Positions 704 to 7,880 of a stretch of 19,902 nucleotides of DNA are shown piece after piece (position 1 is the first letter of the stretch; the number at the start of each line of letters is the position of its first letter). Position numbers and translations under genes: made by a program. The DNA lies in contig WAJX01000191.1 of assembly GCA_015523665.1 (NCBI GenBank), positions 1-19,902 of the forward strand, in the 5' to 3' direction. The notes below the pieces were generated by a model. It had not been told where the DNA came from and did no database searches. It saw nothing but the letters and a program-made list of their open reading frames with translations. The stretch is from Ferroglobus sp. GTDB lineage: Archaea; Halobacteriota; Archaeoglobi; Archaeoglobales; Archaeoglobaceae.

Positions 704-940
704 ATGTCATTTATGAGACTCCAAATTAAATTTAAAAGAAGGAGAGGAGTTGTTGAAGTAGATGTGGTTGAGAAGTCTGTTGTAGTTTTGGATTGTACAA
801 TAATTGAAAGTTGCTCAAGATACTATGGGAAATGTGTCCCATATTGCGAGCTCATAGTTGCTGCAAAGGATTACGCTTTCAAGAGGAGAAAACCTAAAGC
901 TGAGGTAGTTGAAATTGAGTCAGCGCGTCAAACGGATTGA
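704..940 (+). CDS. Small conserved-looking protein with four cysteines, function unknown
   Basis: A 78-residue protein of unrecognised family. It starts with a basic stretch (FKRRRG), then two valine-rich beta-strand-like segments (VVEVDVVEKSVVVL), then four cysteines in the pattern C-x6-C-x6-C-x3-C (DCTIIESCSRYYGKCVPYC), which could bind a metal, and a basic tail. I chose ATG 704; GTG 695 and ATG 713 are in frame, and none has a clear ribosome-binding site, as expected for a short-leader archaeal transcript from the TATA box at about 650-661. Its 3' end overlaps the convergent DUF429 gene by 21 bases. The compact size and promoter support a real gene; the function is open. Confidence 0.6.
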   Translation: MSFMRLQIKFKRRRGVVEVDVVEKSVVVLDCTIIESCSRYYGKCVPYCELIVAAKDYAFKRRKPKAEVVEIESARQTD

Positions 941-1444
941 TGGAATCAAGATCTTACACTTCTCCCCTACAAGTTTACCCTTTCCCTCCTTATAGAGTTT
1001 TACTGTAATTGCTGAGGTTATCGCATCTATTTCATGATGATTTAATACAAAATCGATATCTACAAATTTATTTAAAAATTCTGTTATCCTCTTTCTTCCC
1101 TTTTTTCTCTTCTTATTTTCCTTACATCCCAATATGTATCTAGTTGCATAAGGATAAACCTCATAAACCTCTCCTATCATCTTAGCCTTCTCAGCAATCT
1201 CTATCCCTTTTTTTGTCAATTCTTTCATAATCTTCATGTTAACTGGAAAGATTGGGATTCCCATATCTAAAATGTATCTATCACAATCTCTGAAAGGTCT
1301 ATCAGAAAAGCTTAAAGGTGAGTCAATTCCACATGCATGAAATCTGAGATCCTCTCTCCACTCTCCGAGATATCTTATCTCTCTTCCACTTATTATAGCA
1401 GCAATACTCCTTTTCATTCCAACATCTATACCGCAGATCATCAT
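920..1444 (-). CDS. DUF429 family protein, predicted RNase H-fold nuclease
   Basis: The 174-residue protein begins MMICGIDVGMKRSIAAI, a strand with an early Asp followed by a second strand, as in RNase H-like folds, and has the typical DUF429 stretches GIDSPLSF, a proline/tyrosine-rich middle (YEVYPYATRYILGC) and a C-terminal HHEIDAITSA helix whose Glu/Asp would complete an acidic site. The family is widespread in archaea and predicted to be a nuclease, but its substrate is not established. The start at ATG 1444 is the natural one, 56 bases from the divergent rps13 start. A basic insertion (ENKKRKKGRKR, near residue 110) could help nucleic-acid binding. Its 3' end overlaps the small gene at 704-940. 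Confidence 0.75.
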   Translation of the reverse strand: MMICGIDVGMKRSIAAIISGREIRYLGEWREDLRFHACGIDSPLSFSDRPFRDCDRYILDMGIPIFPVNMKIMKELTKKGIEIAEKAKMIGEVYEVYPYATRYILGCKENKKRKKGRKRITEFLNKFVDIDFVLNHHEIDAITSAITVKLYKEGKGKLVGEKCKILIPSIRLTR

Positions 1445-1458
1445 AAAGAGGTAGCAAT

Positions 1459-1496
1459 CTTTAAATATCCTTTTTAATTGCTGTCATGGTAGGTGG
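1459..1496 (+). promoter_or_regulatory. Promoter and ribosome-binding site of the rps13 operon
   Basis: A TATA-like CTTTAAATAT at 1459-1468 is followed by AGGTGG at 1491-1496, four bases before ATG 1501. The same AGGTGGTTAAATG string precedes cbiM. The predicted transcription start near 1490 would leave a very short leader beginning at the ribosome-binding site. Confidence 0.45.
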
Positions 1497-1500
1497 TTAA

Positions 1501-1944
1501 ATGAGTGAATTTAAGCATATAGTTAGAATTGCAGATACAGATCTTGATGGAAATAAAAAAGTTATTCACGCTCTTACTGGGATAAAAGGAATAGGATTGA
1601 GATTAGCTCATGCGATAACAAATCATCTCGGGATAAATTCAAAATTAAAACTCGGAGAGCTTAGTGATGAGGAGATAGAGATGTTAAAAAAGTTTATTGA
1701 GGAGTCAATAGAAGATTTACCATCTTGGATGCTTAACAGAAGGAAAGATCCTTATTCTGGAAAGAACTTGCATCTCCTAAGTAAAGATGTTGAATTCGCT
1801 AGAATGCTTGATATTGAGAGGTTAATTAAGATTAGAGCATACAGAGGAGTTAGACATGCAAGAGGGTATAAGGTTAGAGGGCAGAGAACTAGATCTACTG
1901 GCAGAAAAGGAGCGACTGTTGGAGTTATAAGAAAGAAGAAATGA
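1501..1944 (+). CDS. rps13: 30S ribosomal protein uS13
   Basis: A component of the small-subunit head that contacts the 5S/uL5 bridge and the P-site tRNA. The 147-residue protein shows the archaeal form: FKHIVRIADTDLDGNKK at the N-terminus, the helix-hairpin-helix segment ALTGIKGIGLRLAHAI, and the strongly basic C-terminus RGVRHARGYKVRGQRTRSTG typical of the family. Length matches archaeal uS13 (about 145-150). First gene of the rps13-rps4-rps11-rpoD cluster; AGGTGG sits just before its ATG. The next gene starts 10 bases after its stop. Confidence 0.98.
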   Translation: MSEFKHIVRIADTDLDGNKKVIHALTGIKGIGLRLAHAITNHLGINSKLKLGELSDEEIEMLKKFIEESIEDLPSWMLNRRKDPYSGKNLHLLSKDVEFARMLDIERLIKIRAYRGVRHARGYKVRGQRTRSTGRKGATVGVIRKKK

Positions 1945-1954
1945 GGTGTGAGAT

Positions 1955-2476
1955 ATGGGGGATCCGAAAAGGCATAGAAAGAAGTATATAACTCCAACAA
2001 AACCGTGGGATAAAGTTAGGCTTGAACAAGAAGCATCTTTAATTATAAAATATGGGTTGAGAAATAAAAGAGAACTTTGGAGATTTCAAAATATCCTCAG
2101 AAAATATAGGAGAGTTGCAAGAGATCTTTTGGCTAGAGTAGATATGCCTGGAAGAGAAGGAGAATACGCTAAAGCGAAGGCTCAGCAGATAATAAAGAAA
2201 CTTTACAGACTTGGAATTCTTGATGAAGATGCAATTCTCGATGACATTCTTAATTTAAGTGTTGAGGACTTTCTTGAGAGGAGGTTGCAAACAATAGTTT
2301 ACAGACAGGGATTAGCTAACACGATTAAACAAGCCAGACAATTGATAGTTCACGGCCATATAGCTATTTCTGGGAGAAGAGTAACATCTCCGAGTTATAT
2401 AGTTAAAAGAGAAGAGGAGGGAATGATAGATTATTATGTGAATTCACCTTTTGCGAGGAGGAATGAGAATGGCTAA
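1955..2476 (+). CDS. rps4: 30S ribosomal protein uS4
   Basis: A primary 16S rRNA-binding, assembly-initiating protein of the small-subunit body. The 173 residues start [11 protein letters not shown], the normal archaeal/eukaryotic (S9e-like) N-terminus, and include the S4 RNA-binding domain from about residue 104 ([19 protein letters not shown], then [17 protein letters not shown]). The start ATG follows AGGTGTGAGAT in the intergenic spacer. Its last 8 bases overlap the start of rps11, so translation is probably coupled. Confidence 0.98.
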
Positions 2477-2864
2477 GAAAAAGCCGATTTGGGGAATTGC
2501 GCATATATTTTCATCATATAACAACATAATCATAACGATAACGGATATTACTGGTAGTGAAACTATTGCAAGGGTTAGTGGAGGGATGATTGTTAAAGCT
2601 GATAGGGATGAGGGTAATCCATATACAGCGATGCAAGCTGCTTTAAGAGCTGCTGAGATCGCAAAGGATAAAGGTATTGAAGGTGTGCATATAAAGGTTA
2701 GAGCCCCTGGAGGAAATAAGCACACCACTCCTGGCCCTGGAGCTCAGGCAGCAATAAGAGCTTTAGCAAGAGCAGGTTTGAAAATAGGAAGAATTGAAGA
2801 TGTTACACCGATCCCTCATGATGGAACTCGTCCACCAGGTGGGAAAAGAGGTAGAAGAGTTTAA
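2469..2864 (+). CDS. rps11: 30S ribosomal protein uS11
   Basis: A platform protein of the small subunit near the E site and the 3' end of 16S rRNA. It reads [19 protein letters not shown], then [16 protein letters not shown], and ends with the conserved basic tail [17 protein letters not shown]. The open frame extends to a TTG at 2451, but AGGAGG at 2456-2461 is correctly spaced (7 bases) for ATG 2469, which also gives the canonical archaeal N-terminus; I therefore use 2469 (131 residues). It overlaps the end of rps4 by 8 bases. Confidence 0.98.
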
Positions 2865-2875
2865 TTGTGATTTTT

Positions 2876-3664
2876 ATGAAAATTGAGTTTATTCAAGAGA
2901 ATGAAAATTTTGCTAAGTTTATATTAAAAGACTCTTCTATAACGTTTGCAAATTCTTGGAGAAGAGCGATGAAAAGCTATGTGCCAACTATGGCTGTAGA
3001 TTACATAGATGTGTATCTAAATACTTCTTTTCTTTACGATGAAATTCTCGCTCATAGGATTGGTTTGATCCCTCTTAAAACAAATCTAGAAAAGTATAAT
3101 CCACAAGAAAAATGTGTTTGTAATGGAGAGGGATGTCCAAATTGTCAAGTTTCTTTGAGATTAAATGTTGAGGGACCGAAAGTTGTTTATTCTGGTGATT
3201 TTATCTCTGAAGATCCAGAGATAGTCCCAGTCTTTGAAGATATACCAATTGTAGAGCTTTATAAGGATCAACAACTTATGATAGAGGCTGTAGCGAGACT
3301 CGGAACTGGAAAGGAACATGCAAAGTTTCAACCAGTATCTTTATGCTCGTATAAAATAATTCCCAAAATAGAGATAGAAAGGGGGAAATGTAATTTATGT
3401 AAGAGATGTATTGAAGTCTGTCCAAGAGATGTTTTTGGAGTTGAGGATGAGGATATTAAGGTTGAAAGAATTTTAGACTGTTCTTTTTGCTTAGAATGTG
3501 TTAAAGCATGTGATGAGAAAGCAATTACCGTTTTGGAAACGAATAACTTTCTTTTCACAATTGAGGGATTAGGTCAACTCCCTATAAGAGTTGTGATGAA
3601 AAAGGCTTTAGAAGTTTTAAAAGAGAAAGCAGAAGAGATGAACAGAATTCTTGAGGCTGTATGA
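2876..3664 (+). CDS. rpoD: DNA-directed RNA polymerase subunit D (Rpo3) with two ferredoxin-like 4Fe-4S motifs
   Basis: The archaeal counterpart of bacterial alpha and eukaryotic RPB3; it pairs with subunit L to nucleate polymerase assembly. Of 262 residues, 1-50 form the dimerisation start (SITFANSWRRAMKSYVPTMA), residues 80-90 hold a CVCNGEGCPNC knuckle, and 172-212 hold an inserted ferredoxin-like domain with two full sets of four cysteines: C172, C175, C178, C182 and C202, C205, C208, C212, each with the CxxCxxCxxxC spacing. The C-terminal segment (LFTIEGLGQLPIRVV) returns to the dimerisation fold. ATG 2876 is chosen over GTG 2867 because it gives the usual N-terminus and the GTGAT at 2867-2871 can serve as a ribosome-binding site. 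Last gene of the operon; the rpl18e-rpl13-rps9 genes that follow rpoD in many archaea are absent. Confidence 0.97.
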   Translation: MKIEFIQENENFAKFILKDSSITFANSWRRAMKSYVPTMAVDYIDVYLNTSFLYDEILAHRIGLIPLKTNLEKYNPQEKCVCNGEGCPNCQVSLRLNVEGPKVVYSGDFISEDPEIVPVFEDIPIVELYKDQQLMIEAVARLGTGKEHAKFQPVSLCSYKIIPKIEIERGKCNLCKRCIEVCPRDVFGVEDEDIKVERILDCSFCLECVKACDEKAITVLETNNFLFTIEGLGQLPIRVVMKKALEVLKEKAEEMNRILEAV

Positions 3665-3881
3665 GATTGTGTGATGTATAATATAAATATATTTAATAAA
3701 AAATATATAATATAATAATAAATATTAATAAGACTGAAAGATTATATATTTATATATATCAATTTTATATCTTTCCTTTTTATATTTGGGTTTGTTATAA
3801 CGAATCTTTTTTATATTATTAATATTAATTAAATTATCAATATTTGGTTTTGTTTATTTAATTAATTTATTTGTTCTATAA
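3665..3881. other. AT-rich spacer between convergent rpoD and the antiporter gene
   Basis: Almost pure A/T with T-runs (CTTTCCTTTTTATATTT, 3771-3787) suited to terminating rpoD transcription on the plus strand; the antiporter transcript presumably ends here from the other side. No gene or structured RNA seen. Confidence 0.4.
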
Positions 3882-5033
3882 TCACCTCTCAGATATCAAG
3901 AGTAAACGTTTGACAAGAGATGGGCAAATTATAACAGATATTATTGCTAAAATTACGAATATGGAAAATAATTCATCGTTTATCAACTTAATCTCATACC
4001 CAATTTCAACAGCTGCTATTATCAAACTAAGTCTGGTTGCATGTAATAATCCCATGGATAGACTTTCTTTAATGTTAAATCCGCTAAAGTTGGAAATAAA
4101 GCTCACACCAGCAACCTTTGAAATTATCCCGGAAATTACAACAATTAAAAGAATTTCAATACTTTCCATACTGGAAAGTAATAATGGTATATTCATACGA
4201 GCTCCGACTAGTATGAAGAATAGTGGTATAAAAAACCCATATCCGAAGCTTTCGAGCTTTCTTTCGAGGATCGAACGCTCTTGTGGAGTCAATTCTGATA
4301 TGATCAATCCAGCAATGAATGCTCCCATTATCGAATGAAACCCTAATTCTCCAGATAGAGCCACTAATGATATAATTAAAGCAAAAGATAATCTAACTCC
4401 TTGTTCAAAATGTGTCTCATCACATAACCAACTTTCAATCTTATTTCGAACATCTCTTTTCTTTATTCCGTATGGGATTAAAAAGAGTATGGTAAGTAGA
4501 ATCGCTGAATATAGGAATGAGAGTGTTAAAGCTCCTTGAATGAAGGTTATGGTGAATGCAAGCAGAAATATGCTAAGTATGTCCACTAATACAACTGAGC
4601 TTATGAGAGTTTCTGAAAACTCCTCCTTTTTGCCAACCTCTTTTGAAAATGGGAGAATTATTCCAATAGAGGTTGTTGAAAAAACTGTTCCAGCGAATAA
4701 GGGATGTATGCCTATATAGGGTGATATAAGAATTCCTGTTATAAATGGGATCAGAATTGAAAATAGTGAAATTTTAATCGTTTTTTTAAGTCTATCCTCT
4801 ATTTTTGAGAAATCTACGTCAAGACCAGCAAGAAACATTAGATATATCAACCCGAATGATTTGAAGAAGTCTATAATTGGATCTTCGCTCACAACATTAA
4901 GTAATGAAGCACCAAAAAAAGCTCCTAAAATTATTTCGATCACGATTAGTGGCATTTTAGTTCTTTTTGAGATTTCGGGGGCTATCATTATACCAAAAAA
5001 GATGATAGCAAGTGAGATTATTATCGATTCCAT
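3882..5033 (-). CDS. Cation:proton antiporter, CPA2 (KefB/NapA-like) family
   Basis: A 383-residue, almost wholly membrane protein with about eleven to twelve hydrophobic helices. Family marks are MFLAGLDVDFSKI (the GLxxD helix end), the STTSIG segment after a substrate-path helix, GELGFHSIMGAFIAGLIISE, and ILVGARMNIPLL near the C-terminus. CPA2 proteins exchange Na+ or K+ for protons across the cytoplasmic membrane to hold pH and ion balance. There is no C-terminal TrkA-N regulatory domain: the protein ends right after the membrane part, the usual compact archaeal form. A TATA box (TTTATAAC at about 5057-5064 on this strand) lies some 26-30 bases upstream of ATG 5033, so the message is probably nearly leaderless. 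It stands alone between spacers. Which cation it carries cannot be told. Confidence 0.9.
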   Translation of the reverse strand: MESIIISLAIIFFGIMIAPEISKRTKMPLIVIEIILGAFFGASLLNVVSEDPIIDFFKSFGLIYLMFLAGLDVDFSKIEDRLKKTIKISLFSILIPFITGILISPYIGIHPLFAGTVFSTTSIGIILPFSKEVGKKEEFSETLISSVVLVDILSIFLLAFTITFIQGALTLSFLYSAILLTILFLIPYGIKKRDVRNKIESWLCDETHFEQGVRLSFALIISLVALSGELGFHSIMGAFIAGLIISELTPQERSILERKLESFGYGFFIPLFFILVGARMNIPLLLSSMESIEILLIVVISGIISKVAGVSFISNFSGFNIKESLSMGLLHATRLSLIIAAVEIGYEIKLINDELFSIFVILAIISVIICPSLVKRLLLISER

Positions 5034-5255
5034 GGTGAGCTTGTTACTTACTCAGTTATAAAGGTTGTAGTTCATCAATTAAAATAAAATAATAAAAATA
5101 TAGATATAAAGAGATAAAAAATAGATATAATATAATTAATTATAATTAATTAAATTATTTAACATTAATATTTTTAACTAAATTGGCAAAACGTATATCA
5201 TTTTAATCTCATTTTTTAATTATTTTATTTTATAAAAAATATAGAAATTGTATTA
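5034..5255. other. AT-rich spacer with the antiporter promoter
   Basis: Repetitive TTAATTATAATTAATT-type sequence, with the minus-strand TATA box of the antiporter gene at its left edge (about 5057-5064) and the end of ccmF at its right edge. No gene seen. Confidence 0.4.
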
Positions 5256-7085
5256 TTAATCAAATTTCAATCTATAACTCATGGCGAATAATCCGCCGAT
5301 AATCATAACAATAGAACCTATCCAAACGAAAGAGACTAATGGAATTACGTAAAATTCAAAGAATCCTTTATTTTGACTAATCCCGCTAATGGCTATATAA
5401 TAGTCTCTTTCTACACTTGAATCAATACTAACTCCAGAAACTATCCTTTCTTGTCTTTTAATCTTGTAATTGATAAGTTTTGGATTTAACTCAGCCTTTA
5501 AATTACCGTCTTTATAAACATCCACGATAGCTGTGGCTACAACCTTTTCCTCATCTTCACTGAAGATCACATCCTTAAGTTTTAATTCATACTCTCCAGC
5601 TTTGTAACTTCCACCCACTGGTATCTCAACTTTATAATGCTCTTCATAAATCCATGACCCCATAACTCCGATAAAGAGTAGTAGGAGACCTATGTGGGTT
5701 ATATATCCACCAAACTTTCTTGGATTTTTATAATCCGTTGGTTTTATAGTTTGTATATGGTTAATTAATGAAAAAAGAAAGATTCCACTCGCTAAGCTTG
5801 CTATGCTCATAGATGTTACAAAAAATACGATAATTCCTGCTATAATTCCAATTAGAGAGGAGATTTTTATTCTCAGTAGAAAAACTTCTTTGTTGAATTT
5901 CCAATCCATTGCAATACATATGCCTAATAGAATAACAAGTAGTGTTCCAAGTGGTATTTCAATTCTGTTGTAGAATGATTTACCAACTACAACATCACTA
6001 AAAAGTGGGGTCAAAGTTCCTAACAAAATAGTTATTGCTGATAGCGAGAGTATAAAAATATTCATAATTAATGTAAGATCTCTAATAGTTGATGCACTTT
6101 TCTTATTTTCAGTATGGGTTTTCCCCTTATAAACTTTGAACGAGAGTAGAGCTGAGAAAGTAATTAGTGCTAAATAGAAGTACGCTTCAGCACTCTCTCC
6201 AAAAGCATGGACACTTTCTATAATCCCACTTCTTGTTATGAAGGTTGCAAGAATGACTAACATGAACGTTGTTGATGTAAGCCAAAAATTGAGATGTCTA
6301 AATCTCCTTATGAGTCCATGGATTAGTGCTGTTGCTGTAAGCCAAGGAAGTAAGCTGGCATTCTCGACTGGATCCCAAGCCCAAAAACCACCCCATCCGA
6401 GTGTTTTGTAAGCCCACCATCCACCTAAAAATATGCCAATTGATAGGAAAATCCACGTGATGAGAGTCCATATTCTTATTCTATTCTCCCACTGACTTCT
6501 CAAATACATAGATGCTATTGCAATTGAGAATGGCAAAGTTGCTCCCGCATAACCGAGAAATATTGTTGGAGGATGAAGAGCCATCTCAGGAGTTCTGAGT
6601 AACGGAATTAGTCCATATCCATCTTGAGGTGTAAACTCTAGTCTAACAAAAGGATTTGATGTTGTCAAAAGGAGTAAGCTTAAAAAGAGGAAAATGAATG
6701 ATGAGATAGAAAGAGATAAAGCTAGGACTCTGTCTTTTCTCTCGATTTTCAATGCTAAGACATTTAAGATTGCAATGTAAACTGCCCAAAGTAATAACGA
6801 CCCTTCTCTTCCAGCCCATACAGCACTGATTGTATACAGAGGACTTAGATGCCTATCTGAGTATAGATAAACATATCTAACATTAAAATCCCGTATTAAA
6901 AAATAATATGTCAAAATTAAAATAGAAACTATGATTGATATTGTGTAGATGTATAGACTATTCTCTGCCCTTTTTAAAAGCCGTATAGCGACCTTTTTAT
7001 CTGATTTTGAGCCAATATAAAAAGCGTAAGTTGCATAAAGTGAAGAAAGAAATGAAATTATCAAGAATAGATATCCAATATCCAA
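5256..7085 (-). CDS. ccmF: Cytochrome c maturation protein CcmF (heme lyase subunit)
   Basis: Membrane component that attaches heme delivered by CcmE to apocytochrome c on the outer face of the cytoplasmic membrane. The 609 residues show the CcmF signature WAGREGSLLLW (90-100), the tryptophan-rich WWD heme-handling segment at 223-249 (WWAYKTLGWGG, FWAWDPVENASLLPWL), conserved His171 (LHPP) and His293 before and after it, and an outside soluble segment at about 490-580 before a last helix. Length is near the bacterial norm (about 630-650). The start is TTG 7085: AGGAGG at 7098-7093 is 7 bases upstream and lies inside the last codons of ccmE, so the two genes are translationally coupled. No ccmA, B, C or H lies within the window, so the rest of the pathway must be elsewhere. 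Confidence 0.95.
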   Translation of the reverse strand: MDIGYLFLIISFLSSLYATYAFYIGSKSDKKVAIRLLKRAENSLYIYTISIIVSILILTYYFLIRDFNVRYVYLYSDRHLSPLYTISAVWAGREGSLLLWAVYIAILNVLALKIERKDRVLALSLSISSFIFLFLSLLLLTTSNPFVRLEFTPQDGYGLIPLLRTPEMALHPPTIFLGYAGATLPFSIAIASMYLRSQWENRIRIWTLITWIFLSIGIFLGGWWAYKTLGWGGFWAWDPVENASLLPWLTATALIHGLIRRFRHLNFWLTSTTFMLVILATFITRSGIIESVHAFGESAEAYFYLALITFSALLSFKVYKGKTHTENKKSASTIRDLTLIMNIFILSLSAITILLGTLTPLFSDVVVGKSFYNRIEIPLGTLLVILLGICIAMDWKFNKEVFLLRIKISSLIGIIAGIIVFFVTSMSIASLASGIFLFSLINHIQTIKPTDYKNPRKFGGYITHIGLLLLFIGVMGSWIYEEHYKVEIPVGGSYKAGEYELKLKDVIFSEDEEKVVATAIVDVYKDGNLKAELNPKLINYKIKRQERIVSGVSIDSSVERDYYIAISGISQNKGFFEFYVIPLVSFVWIGSIVMIIGGLFAMSYRLKFD

Positions 7086-7088
7086 TTG

Positions 7089-7457
7089 TTATCCTCCTGC
7101 TTGATATTTACTTGGGCATTTAAGCAATAACTTTTCCGCTTCAAAAACTCCATTTTTGTAATCTCCAACAACAACTGCTGGTATCCCTTCTTGATAATTC
7201 TGAACGGCTCCTCTGTAAATCACTTTAATAGTTGTTTTTCCGTCAGTTAATAGAAACGTTCTGGTGTTTGTTTCTGGGTTGTAGGTTGTAGAATTAGGAA
7301 CTATTGTTCCGTTAACTTGGACATTTATAGCTTCCCCCCTCTCTACGACTTGTGTTACAGTTAGATAAGGAGATATACTGTTTTTAAACGCAAACGCTAA
7401 TCCAATTGAGAATATTATTAATGATATTCCTAATATCGTTTTTGTATTTCTATTCAT
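7089..7457 (-). CDS. ccmE: Cytochrome c maturation heme chaperone CcmE, CxxxY variant
   Basis: Periplasm-facing heme chaperone that takes heme from CcmC and passes it to CcmF. The 122-residue protein has one N-terminal membrane helix (about 7-25), then an OB-fold beta-barrel (VQVNGTIV, RTFLLTDGKTTIKVIYRG, IPAVVVGDY, VFEAEKLLLKCPSKY). At the heme-binding site it carries C114-P-S-K-Y118 in place of the HxxxY of standard bacterial CcmE; this Cys form is known from archaea and some sulfate reducers. I chose ATG 7457 over the upstream in-frame TTG 7463 because AGGT and GAGG motifs are better spaced for it. The stop is 3 bases before the ccmF start and the last codons encode the ccmF ribosome-binding site. 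Confidence 0.93.
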   Translation of the reverse strand: MNRNTKTILGISLIIFSIGLAFAFKNSISPYLTVTQVVERGEAINVQVNGTIVPNSTTYNPETNTRTFLLTDGKTTIKVIYRGAVQNYQEGIPAVVVGDYKNGVFEAEKLLLKCPSKYQAGG

Positions 7458-7710
7458 ATCCAACCTACCTCAATATCACTTACTTTTAATTTCTTTGATC
7501 GATATTTAAATCTAATCATCTTTTTATTTTTAACACACATAATCAATTTTTGAATTATTTTAAATTTAAATTTAGATTTTTAATTTAACTTTTTAATTTT
7601 GAATTAATTATTTTGATAATTTTTAATTTGTATTTTTGTTTTTGCTTGAGAAAATTTTTTATATTATTATTTTATATTATATTTTTGATATTAAAAGATA
7701 ATAATGAAGA

Positions 7711-7766
7711 TGGCTCAGAACTCAAAACCCTCATCATTTATTCAGAGGGGCCCTATCATCATAGCC
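7711..7766 (-). ncRNA. Box C/D guide sRNA (2'-O-methylation guide)
   Basis: Read on the minus strand, all elements of an archaeal C/D sRNA occur in order and at normal spacing: terminal stem GGCT (7766-7763), box C ATGATGA (7762-7756), a 10-nt guide (7755-7746), box D' CTGA (7745-7742), a 4-nt spacer, box C' ATGATGA (7737-7731), a 12-nt guide GGGTTTTGAGTT (7730-7719), box D CTGA (7718-7715), closing stem AGCC (7715-7712). Such RNAs assemble with L7Ae, Nop5 and fibrillarin to methylate ribose in rRNA or tRNA at the base paired five positions upstream of D or D'. By that rule the D guide would target the first C after U in AACUCAAAACCC; I could not assign the target RNA. It directly abuts the H/ACA-like RNA on its 5' side. 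Confidence 0.85.
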
Positions 7767-7851
7767 AGTTGTTGCCGATTTTGTGGAATCCCCATCATCC
7801 CCCATCATTTAAAATTTCGGGGATTTCAGGGGACGCATGGCGAATCGGCAT
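7767..7851 (-). ncRNA. H/ACA-like pseudouridylation guide RNA (single hairpin with K-turn)
   Basis: On the minus strand a 7-bp lower stem GCCGATT/AATCGGC (7849-7843 with 7780-7774) encloses a pocket with 8 bases on the left (CGCCATGC, 7842-7835) and 7 on the right (TCCACAA, 7787-7781), then an upper stem GTCCCC/GGGGAT (7834-7829 with 7793-7788). Above it CTGA (7829-7826) faces ATGATG (7798-7793), which can form a K-turn for L7Ae, capped by a CCCC/GGGG stem-loop. ACA lies at 7772-7770, one base after the lower stem, and 15 bases from the upper stem, matching the 14-16 base rule. The upper stem is shorter than usual (6 bp), and CCCC/GGGG runs allow other folds, so the call is less sure than the C/D RNA next to it. 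Confidence 0.65.
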
Positions 7852-7869: not shown

Positions 7870-7880
7870 ATAATAAAAAT
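7870..7880 (-). promoter_or_regulatory. TATA-like box for the guide-RNA pair
   Basis: On the minus strand ATTTTTATTAT lies about 25 bases before the first base of the H/ACA lower stem, the archaeal TATA-to-start distance. It would start one transcript carrying both RNAs. Confidence 0.4.

Follow-up and report, generated by a model that had tools for sequence, protein, structure and literature searches.

The window, by which we mean the whole stretch of 19,902 nucleotides analysed here, is contig C191 of a Ferroglobus sp. MAG (81.7% complete, 267 contigs). Between ccmE (7463-7089, minus strand) and cbiM (8126, plus strand), both named by Pfam, lies a G+C-rich island that reads on the minus strand as two guide RNAs, an H/ACA RNA first and a box C/D RNA second. 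The pair is abutting: the terminal stem of the C/D RNA begins at 7766, directly after the presumed H/ACA 3′ end at 7767, so that the zero gap proposed in an earlier sequence-only reading, with the H/ACA RNA ending three bases past its ACA and touching the first base of the C/D RNA, was borne out. The minus strand here has a fold z-score of -3.1, and only 1 of 200 shuffles was equally stable. The features are as follows.

7871 to 7879, minus strand: TATA-like box TTTTTATTA, the proposed single promoter, beginning 30 nt before the H/ACA stem
7767 to 7849, minus strand: H/ACA guide RNA, Af190 type by target (model R1 match, covariation, 16S target)
7849-7843 with 7780-7774, minus strand: H/ACA lower stem of 7 bp, GCCGATT with AATCGGC (from sequence)
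7842-7835, minus strand: H/ACA 5′ pocket, 8 nt (from sequence)
7836 to 7841, minus strand: 5′ guide GCCATG, pairing with CATGGC after the target uridine
7788 to 7834, minus strand: upper stem, K-turn and lineage-specific apical extension (alignment and fold)
7834-7829 with 7793-7788, minus strand: H/ACA upper stem, GTCCCC with GGGGAT, one G-U (from sequence)
7829-7826 opposite 7798-7793, minus strand: H/ACA K-turn, CTGA opposite ATGATG (from sequence)
7787-7781, minus strand: H/ACA 3′ pocket, 7 nt (from sequence)
7783 to 7786, minus strand: 3′ guide CCAC within this pocket, pairing with GTGG before the target uridine
7770 to 7772, minus strand: ACA box (from sequence)
7769-7767, minus strand: ACT following the ACA box (from sequence)
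7712 to 7766, minus strand: box C/D guide RNA, 55 nt (model R2 match, four boxes)
7762-7756, minus strand: C box ATGATGA (from sequence)
7746 to 7755, minus strand: D′ guide TAGGGCCCCT, with several short matches
7745-7742, minus strand: D′ box CTGA (from sequence)
7736-7731, minus strand: C′ box TGATGA (from sequence)
7719 to 7730, minus strand: D guide GGGTTTTGAGTT, predicted target C34 of tRNA-Leu(CAA) (from guide-tRNA pairing in relatives)
7718-7715, minus strand: D box CTGA (from sequence)
7089 to 7463, minus strand: ccmE, downstream neighbour of the C/D RNA (Pfam CcmE)
7085-5256, minus strand: ccmF, following ccmE (Pfam CcmF_C)

The genes from 920 to 7463 (S13, S4, S11, RpoD, CcmF, CcmE) and the C/D RNA are collinear with a region of a related genome, G010, at C1:740 kb (loci L198 and L178). 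The exception is a Na/H-antiporter-like gene (3882-5033), which is without a match at the G010 locus. The archaeal RpoD subunit gene (2867-3664) encodes a 4Fe-4S ferredoxin-like domain according to Pfam, and the gap between the C/D RNA and ccmE (7464-7711) is A/T-rich and ∼250 bp long in the window versus ∼80 bp in G010.

The H/ACA RNA conforms to its class. Archaeal H/ACA RNAs are described as having a lower stem of 7-9 bp and an ACA box 14-16 nt from the upper-stem pair that closes the pocket (PMC4652768). The 7-bp lower stem, the pocket of 8 and 7 nt and the upper stem in the window lie within the class limits, and the ACA box is 15 nt from U7788, or 14 nt should the following base be stacked within the stem. 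The letters of the K-turn, CTGA opposite ATGATG, mark a putative L7Ae site. The lower stem, pocket, K-turn and ACA (7772-7770) had been named from the sequence alone, and reading the sequence again confirmed them. The length of 83 nt assumes an end three bases past the ACA, and both ends of the RNA are deduced ones. Over the H/ACA model the window RNA spans 84 nt, as opposed to 60-68 nt in the remaining 49 Af190-type RNAs; alignment and folding attribute the difference to an apical loop enlarged into an added stem. In this extra part (7800-7825), a CCCC/GATGATGGGG module is repeated, as if a K-loop had been duplicated and nested to give a K-turn plus a stem.

To what extent the hairpin is conserved was judged in relatives. 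A strict H/ACA pattern recovered the RNA in 16 of 55 genomes of the family, and in nine loci of named Archaeoglobaceae, Geoglobus and Archaeoglobus records, a distribution by which we assign the window to Archaeoglobaceae; model R1, built from the 16 pattern-found RNAs, then matched 50 of 57 genomes of the order, with a single copy in each. The first, smaller alignment, which was not fitted to the model, displayed changes on both sides at four of the seven pairs of the lower stem, a stem that lay outside the search pattern; its further pair types did not rise above shuffles, being matched by 86 of 500. Across all 50 sequences (49 of them distinct), 98.0% of the pair cells were standard, and both-side changes affected 8 of 13 pairs (42 cells) in both stems, so that the compensatory changes for which the sequence-only reading had proposed to look are indeed present. 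The covariation values of this alignment were reached by none of 500 shuffles and by no slid register; the alignment, being fitted to the model, leans towards structure, and the shuffles ignore relatedness. The ACA was in place in 50/50 sequences. The strict K-turn letters, CTGA together with TGAT, occurred in 26/50, the neighbouring letters varying in the others. When the H/ACA part was searched alone against Rfam, three weak matches were returned, none of them to an archaeal H/ACA family, and we took these to be chance.

The two guides of the pocket were invariant in all 50 RNAs, and the stretch from CCAC to the upper stem was variable. With the window RNA as query, we scanned the pocket against rRNA of relatives (7 SSU and 6 LSU sequences, one LSU being partial) and obtained one site common to 7/7 SSU, GGTGG-U-G-CATGGC, paired through 6 + 4 bp. 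This context was present in 10/10 full-length SSU sequences. Counted in the annotated E. coli 16S gene, the target uridine is position 1052, beside C1054 of the 30S head. The same uridine is position 1004 in five relatives (G003, G004, G013, G015 and G040) and falls at 999 to 1023 in the other five SSU. In A. fulgidus, a member of the same archaeal family, the RNA Af190 serves S1004 according to PMC4652768. Because the uridine at 1004 of the relatives coincides with this published site, we took the window H/ACA RNA to be of Af190 type, an identity by target position rather than by comparison with the Af190 sequence itself. From its sequence, the bipartite guide is thus predicted to address the equivalent of 16S U1052.

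The C/D RNA is equally regular, with a C box RUGAUGA, D′ box CUGA, C′ box UGAUGA and D box CUGA, guides of ∼10-12 nt and a terminal stem GGC/GCC. Model R2 matched it in 51 of 57 genomes, G046 containing it twice, and all four boxes, described as perfect in the sequence-only reading, were retained in each of the 19 C/D RNAs that were aligned out of a set of 24. Together with the constant ACA, this answers the question of conservation in relatives positively, and the matches to R1 and R2, along with our own reading of the sequence, uphold the two classes and their boundaries. Rfam archaeal C/D models matched the window below their cut-offs, the best being snoPyro_CD with 31.4 bits versus 45; a gathering score is a curated label and not a defining trait of C/D sRNAs. 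Likewise, in the four C/D and three H/ACA loci of relatives that we tried, no match attained an Rfam gathering score. Phage records gave no match. Could a hairpin and box-like sequence without guide function have come together here by chance? We found nothing in support of this; conservation, covariation and the invariant guides are judged to refute it, and it is almost certainly wrong.

For the D guide, we compared the guides of six relatives, chosen because their guides vary, with the tRNA-Leu(CAA) of the same genome. The first anticodon base fell at box D +5 in 6/6, and 11 or 12 of 12 positions paired, G-U included; the guide places an A opposite G37 in two of the six (G004, G014), and four of the 12 pairs in G020 are G-U. 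A competing site was considered in 16S rRNA near 970-990 (GGCTGAAGACCC). In a scan of the guides of five genomes against their own SSU and LSU, of which the G018 row was void since it contained a different nearby C/D RNA, this site paired well in 3/4 valid genomes (G010, G013, G022) but was mismatched at the +5 base; tRNA-Leu(CAA) fits better, and rRNA was dropped as the D-guide target. The different C/D-like RNA of G018 (L013) lies within ∼1.5 kb of the tRNA-Leu-type C/D RNA. Pyrococcus C/D sRNAs are known for the same position 34 of the tRNA-Leu(CAA) anticodon, as reported in PMC7994747; they belong to the same class and share the predicted target, and are likened to the window RNA by target, not by sequence. 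The D′ guide had 7-8 nt matches to the tRNA-Leu variable arm, tRNA-Leu(GAG) and two 23S sites, none compelling, and the 23S sites recurred only in pairs of genomes. Neither rRNA genes, which were looked for, nor a tRNA-Leu(CAA) among the 23 tRNA matches were found in the window's own genome, and both targets were therefore read from relatives. Two further observations concern tRNA-Leu genes. In G014, the anticodon of the tRNA-Leu(CAA) gene (L112) is apparently followed by a short insert or intron, and the D guide pairs with this form too. In G004, a full tRNA-Leu(GAG) has a same-strand partner at a distance of 13 kb, a truncated 5′ copy (C1:562338 and 575641; L096, L102); the two resemble the termini of an element that has integrated into the tRNA gene.

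The sequence-only reading had placed one TATA-like box at the right distance before the H/ACA RNA and none between the two RNAs; the single well-placed box, TTTTTATTA at 7879-7871, held. A TATA-like motif starting at -36 to -22 before the H/ACA RNA was present in 45 of 50 genomes, the window's included, versus 12/50 and 10/50 in two control stretches. For the window genome alone the box is weak evidence, because the local spacer is A/T-rich. No TATA-like motif was found in the 36 nt before the C/D start at 7766. In relatives, 19 of 30 distinct stretches upstream of the C/D RNA had one versus 13 of 30 in the control, a weak promoter signal. The nearest candidate in the window, AATTTTAAA at ∼7816-7808, is located in the apical loop of the H/ACA RNA, 42-50 nt before the C/D RNA, which in our judgement is too distant for a usual C/D start. 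Since the place of a C/D promoter is filled by the hairpin and the nearest TATA-like motif is this far ahead, the C/D RNA should use the H/ACA promoter. It is very unlikely that the two RNAs merely abut, with the C/D RNA having its own start or coming from read-through of another transcript: AATTTTAAA could start an RNA inside the H/ACA RNA, and the weak C/D promoter signal of relatives would agree with this, but the 36 nt before 7766 are devoid of a TATA-like motif and, as the bases preceding 7766 are the H/ACA hairpin, any transcript from upstream includes that hairpin.

How the two genes came to be neighbours was addressed by their positions elsewhere. Both RNAs occur in 47 genomes and are adjacent in one, the window's own; in 10 genomes they share a contig at distances of ∼23 kb or more (linear coordinates), and in 36 they are on different contigs. 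Adjacency in 1/47 genomes points to a local, lineage-specific event. Consistently, model R2 was run over the window, 30 cbiM loci and 49 H/ACA loci with flanks of 1-1.5 kb (some truncated where a contig ends), and it matched only the window locus (as window and as L227), save for a 14-bit partial match inside the H/ACA RNA of L148. The C/D RNA was found 80-135 bp before a ccmE match in G010, G012, G001 and G013 (4/20 C/D neighbourhoods), and the order C/D-ccmE-ccmF in these four and in G021 (5/21 other genomes examined). As the C/D RNA precedes ccmE in other genomes, it seems native to this place, and the H/ACA RNA looks like the newcomer. The upstream neighbour is new too, because no H/ACA RNA was found next to cbiM in 29 of the 39 other genomes in which cbiM was matched. 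In G010, the H/ACA RNA is 54 kb from the C/D RNA and cbiM is at 1155 kb, which makes both the H/ACA RNA and the gene beyond it new neighbours in the window. Neighbours of the H/ACA RNA differed between most genera examined and were shared within genera g2 and g8, as judged from 13 of 21 loci, the other eight having been dropped where the pattern missed the RNA. Two single pairs of neighbours shared across genera, at different distances (G004-G012 and G051-G001), were taken as chance.

The orientation in G010, H/ACA on the minus and C/D on the plus strand, would allow the window order to arise by one inversion. We dropped this route, as 0/11 searched window proteins from the right of the pair were found at 640-760 kb of G010. 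A contig in which the ccm-C/D locus had been wrongly fused with an H/ACA locus unrelated to it would also produce a unique arrangement. The MAG lies in many contigs, the arrangement was seen once, and the left part is collinear with G010 up to and including the C/D RNA, with the H/ACA RNA and cbiM elsewhere in that genome. Nevertheless, we regard an assembly artefact as quite unlikely: each RNA was found only once in the assembly at E ≤ 0.001, leaving no evident repeat on which a misjoin could form; such a break would have had to land precisely at the boundary of the two RNAs; and the neighbours of the H/ACA RNA vary between most genera examined.

A similar arrangement exists in Thermococcales. 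In P. abyssi, the H/ACA RNA Pab21 (230,517-575) is at the 5′ end of a transcript (230,449-575) annotated as the C/D RNA snoR9 (PMC4652768), and in four Thermococcales the sR9 candidates have an H/ACA RNA ahead of the C/D RNA (PMC2241582). Order and closeness are as in the window; the single transcript is reported there and deduced here. The RNAs themselves do not appear to match. The snoR9 family (RF00065) matched nothing in the H/ACA half with E values up to 10 allowed and was absent among the 41 matches listed for the whole region, from which two same-clan matches were left out; the sR9 model (RF01312) scored 13.3 bits on the C/D half, with a cut-off of 36. The window instead combines an Af190-type H/ACA RNA with a predicted tRNA-Leu(CAA) C/D guide, and its pair very probably arose independently of the Thermococcales case. 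Our literature search, whose partial coverage makes it weak evidence, returned no archaeal H/ACA-C/D transcript besides snoR9/Pab21. PMC7994747, reviewing the context of C/D genes, lists groupings of two or three such genes as well as pairs with a tRNA. The observation and reading of a pair of guide RNAs in the sequence-only note were thus right. Its view that the pairing is unusual stood as to rarity: the arrangement is uncommon, and this is a second case of a known one.

Precedents for the presumed processing come from tRNA-C/D precursors of N. equitans, I. hospitalis and T. tenax, where, as in the window, the C/D RNA starts at the end of another structured RNA (PMC3491384 and PMC7994747). 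By analogy, one processing event could yield both ends. Moreover, the internal boxes, rather than the flanking sequence, are reported to determine C/D maturation (PMC7994747), and a C/D RNA behind an H/ACA RNA would accordingly mature without special signals.

Could the two halves never be separated and act as a stable two-domain guide RNA of ∼138 nt on which RNPs of both classes, H/ACA and C/D, sit together? Eukaryotic composite scaRNAs are comparable two-class guide RNAs. The zero gap suits such a molecule, as does U7767, the third base after the ACA, for which A7711 offers a pairing partner in the C/D terminal stem, and the 127-nt snoR9 transcript of P. abyssi, with its H/ACA RNA at the 5′ end (PMC4652768), is a parallel. 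We consider it rather unlikely, given that relatives keep both RNAs apart, so that a fused product is unneeded, and that C/D sRNAs are described as being trimmed out of diverse precursors under the protection of their RNPs (PMC7994747). The stronger proposal, an uncut two-enzyme guide RNA independent of snoR9 in origin that would provide 16S h34 and tRNA-Leu wobble modification at a fixed 1:1 supply from one promoter, is unlikely.

In our opinion, the locus probably holds two ordinary archaeal guides, an H/ACA gene having moved in front of a native C/D gene, with one transcript made from the H/ACA promoter. What we observed comprises the identity and conservation of the RNAs, the guide-target fits, the gene order and the non-adjacency elsewhere; from these we infer co-transcription, processing from one precursor, modification and which gene moved. 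The H/ACA RNA would assemble with Cbf5, Nop10, Gar1 and L7Ae and direct pseudouridylation of the 16S U1052 equivalent; the C/D RNA, with L7Ae, Nop5 and fibrillarin, would direct 2′-O-methylation of the wobble C34 of tRNA-Leu(CAA). With the C/D gene at home before ccmE-ccmF, the H/ACA gene, its own promoter included, would have arrived directly before it in the window lineage, leaving the C/D RNA dependent on the H/ACA promoter within a single transcript. RNPs nucleated by L7Ae on both halves may then define the ends, by cleavage and trimming at 7767/7766; alternatively, the two-part RNA may be kept, like the Thermococcales snoR9.

The pair is a modest curiosity and not a new system. Two RNA families emerge from the work, an H/ACA one present in 50 genomes and a C/D one in 51, for which Rfam 15 remained below its cut-offs in the window and in the loci of relatives that we tried. 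As a second archaeal H/ACA-C/D pair, the window informs how an H/ACA 3′ end forms without a spacer, and since the separate genes are still visible in relatives, it is a clean case for the movement of a guide RNA gene and the loss of a promoter.
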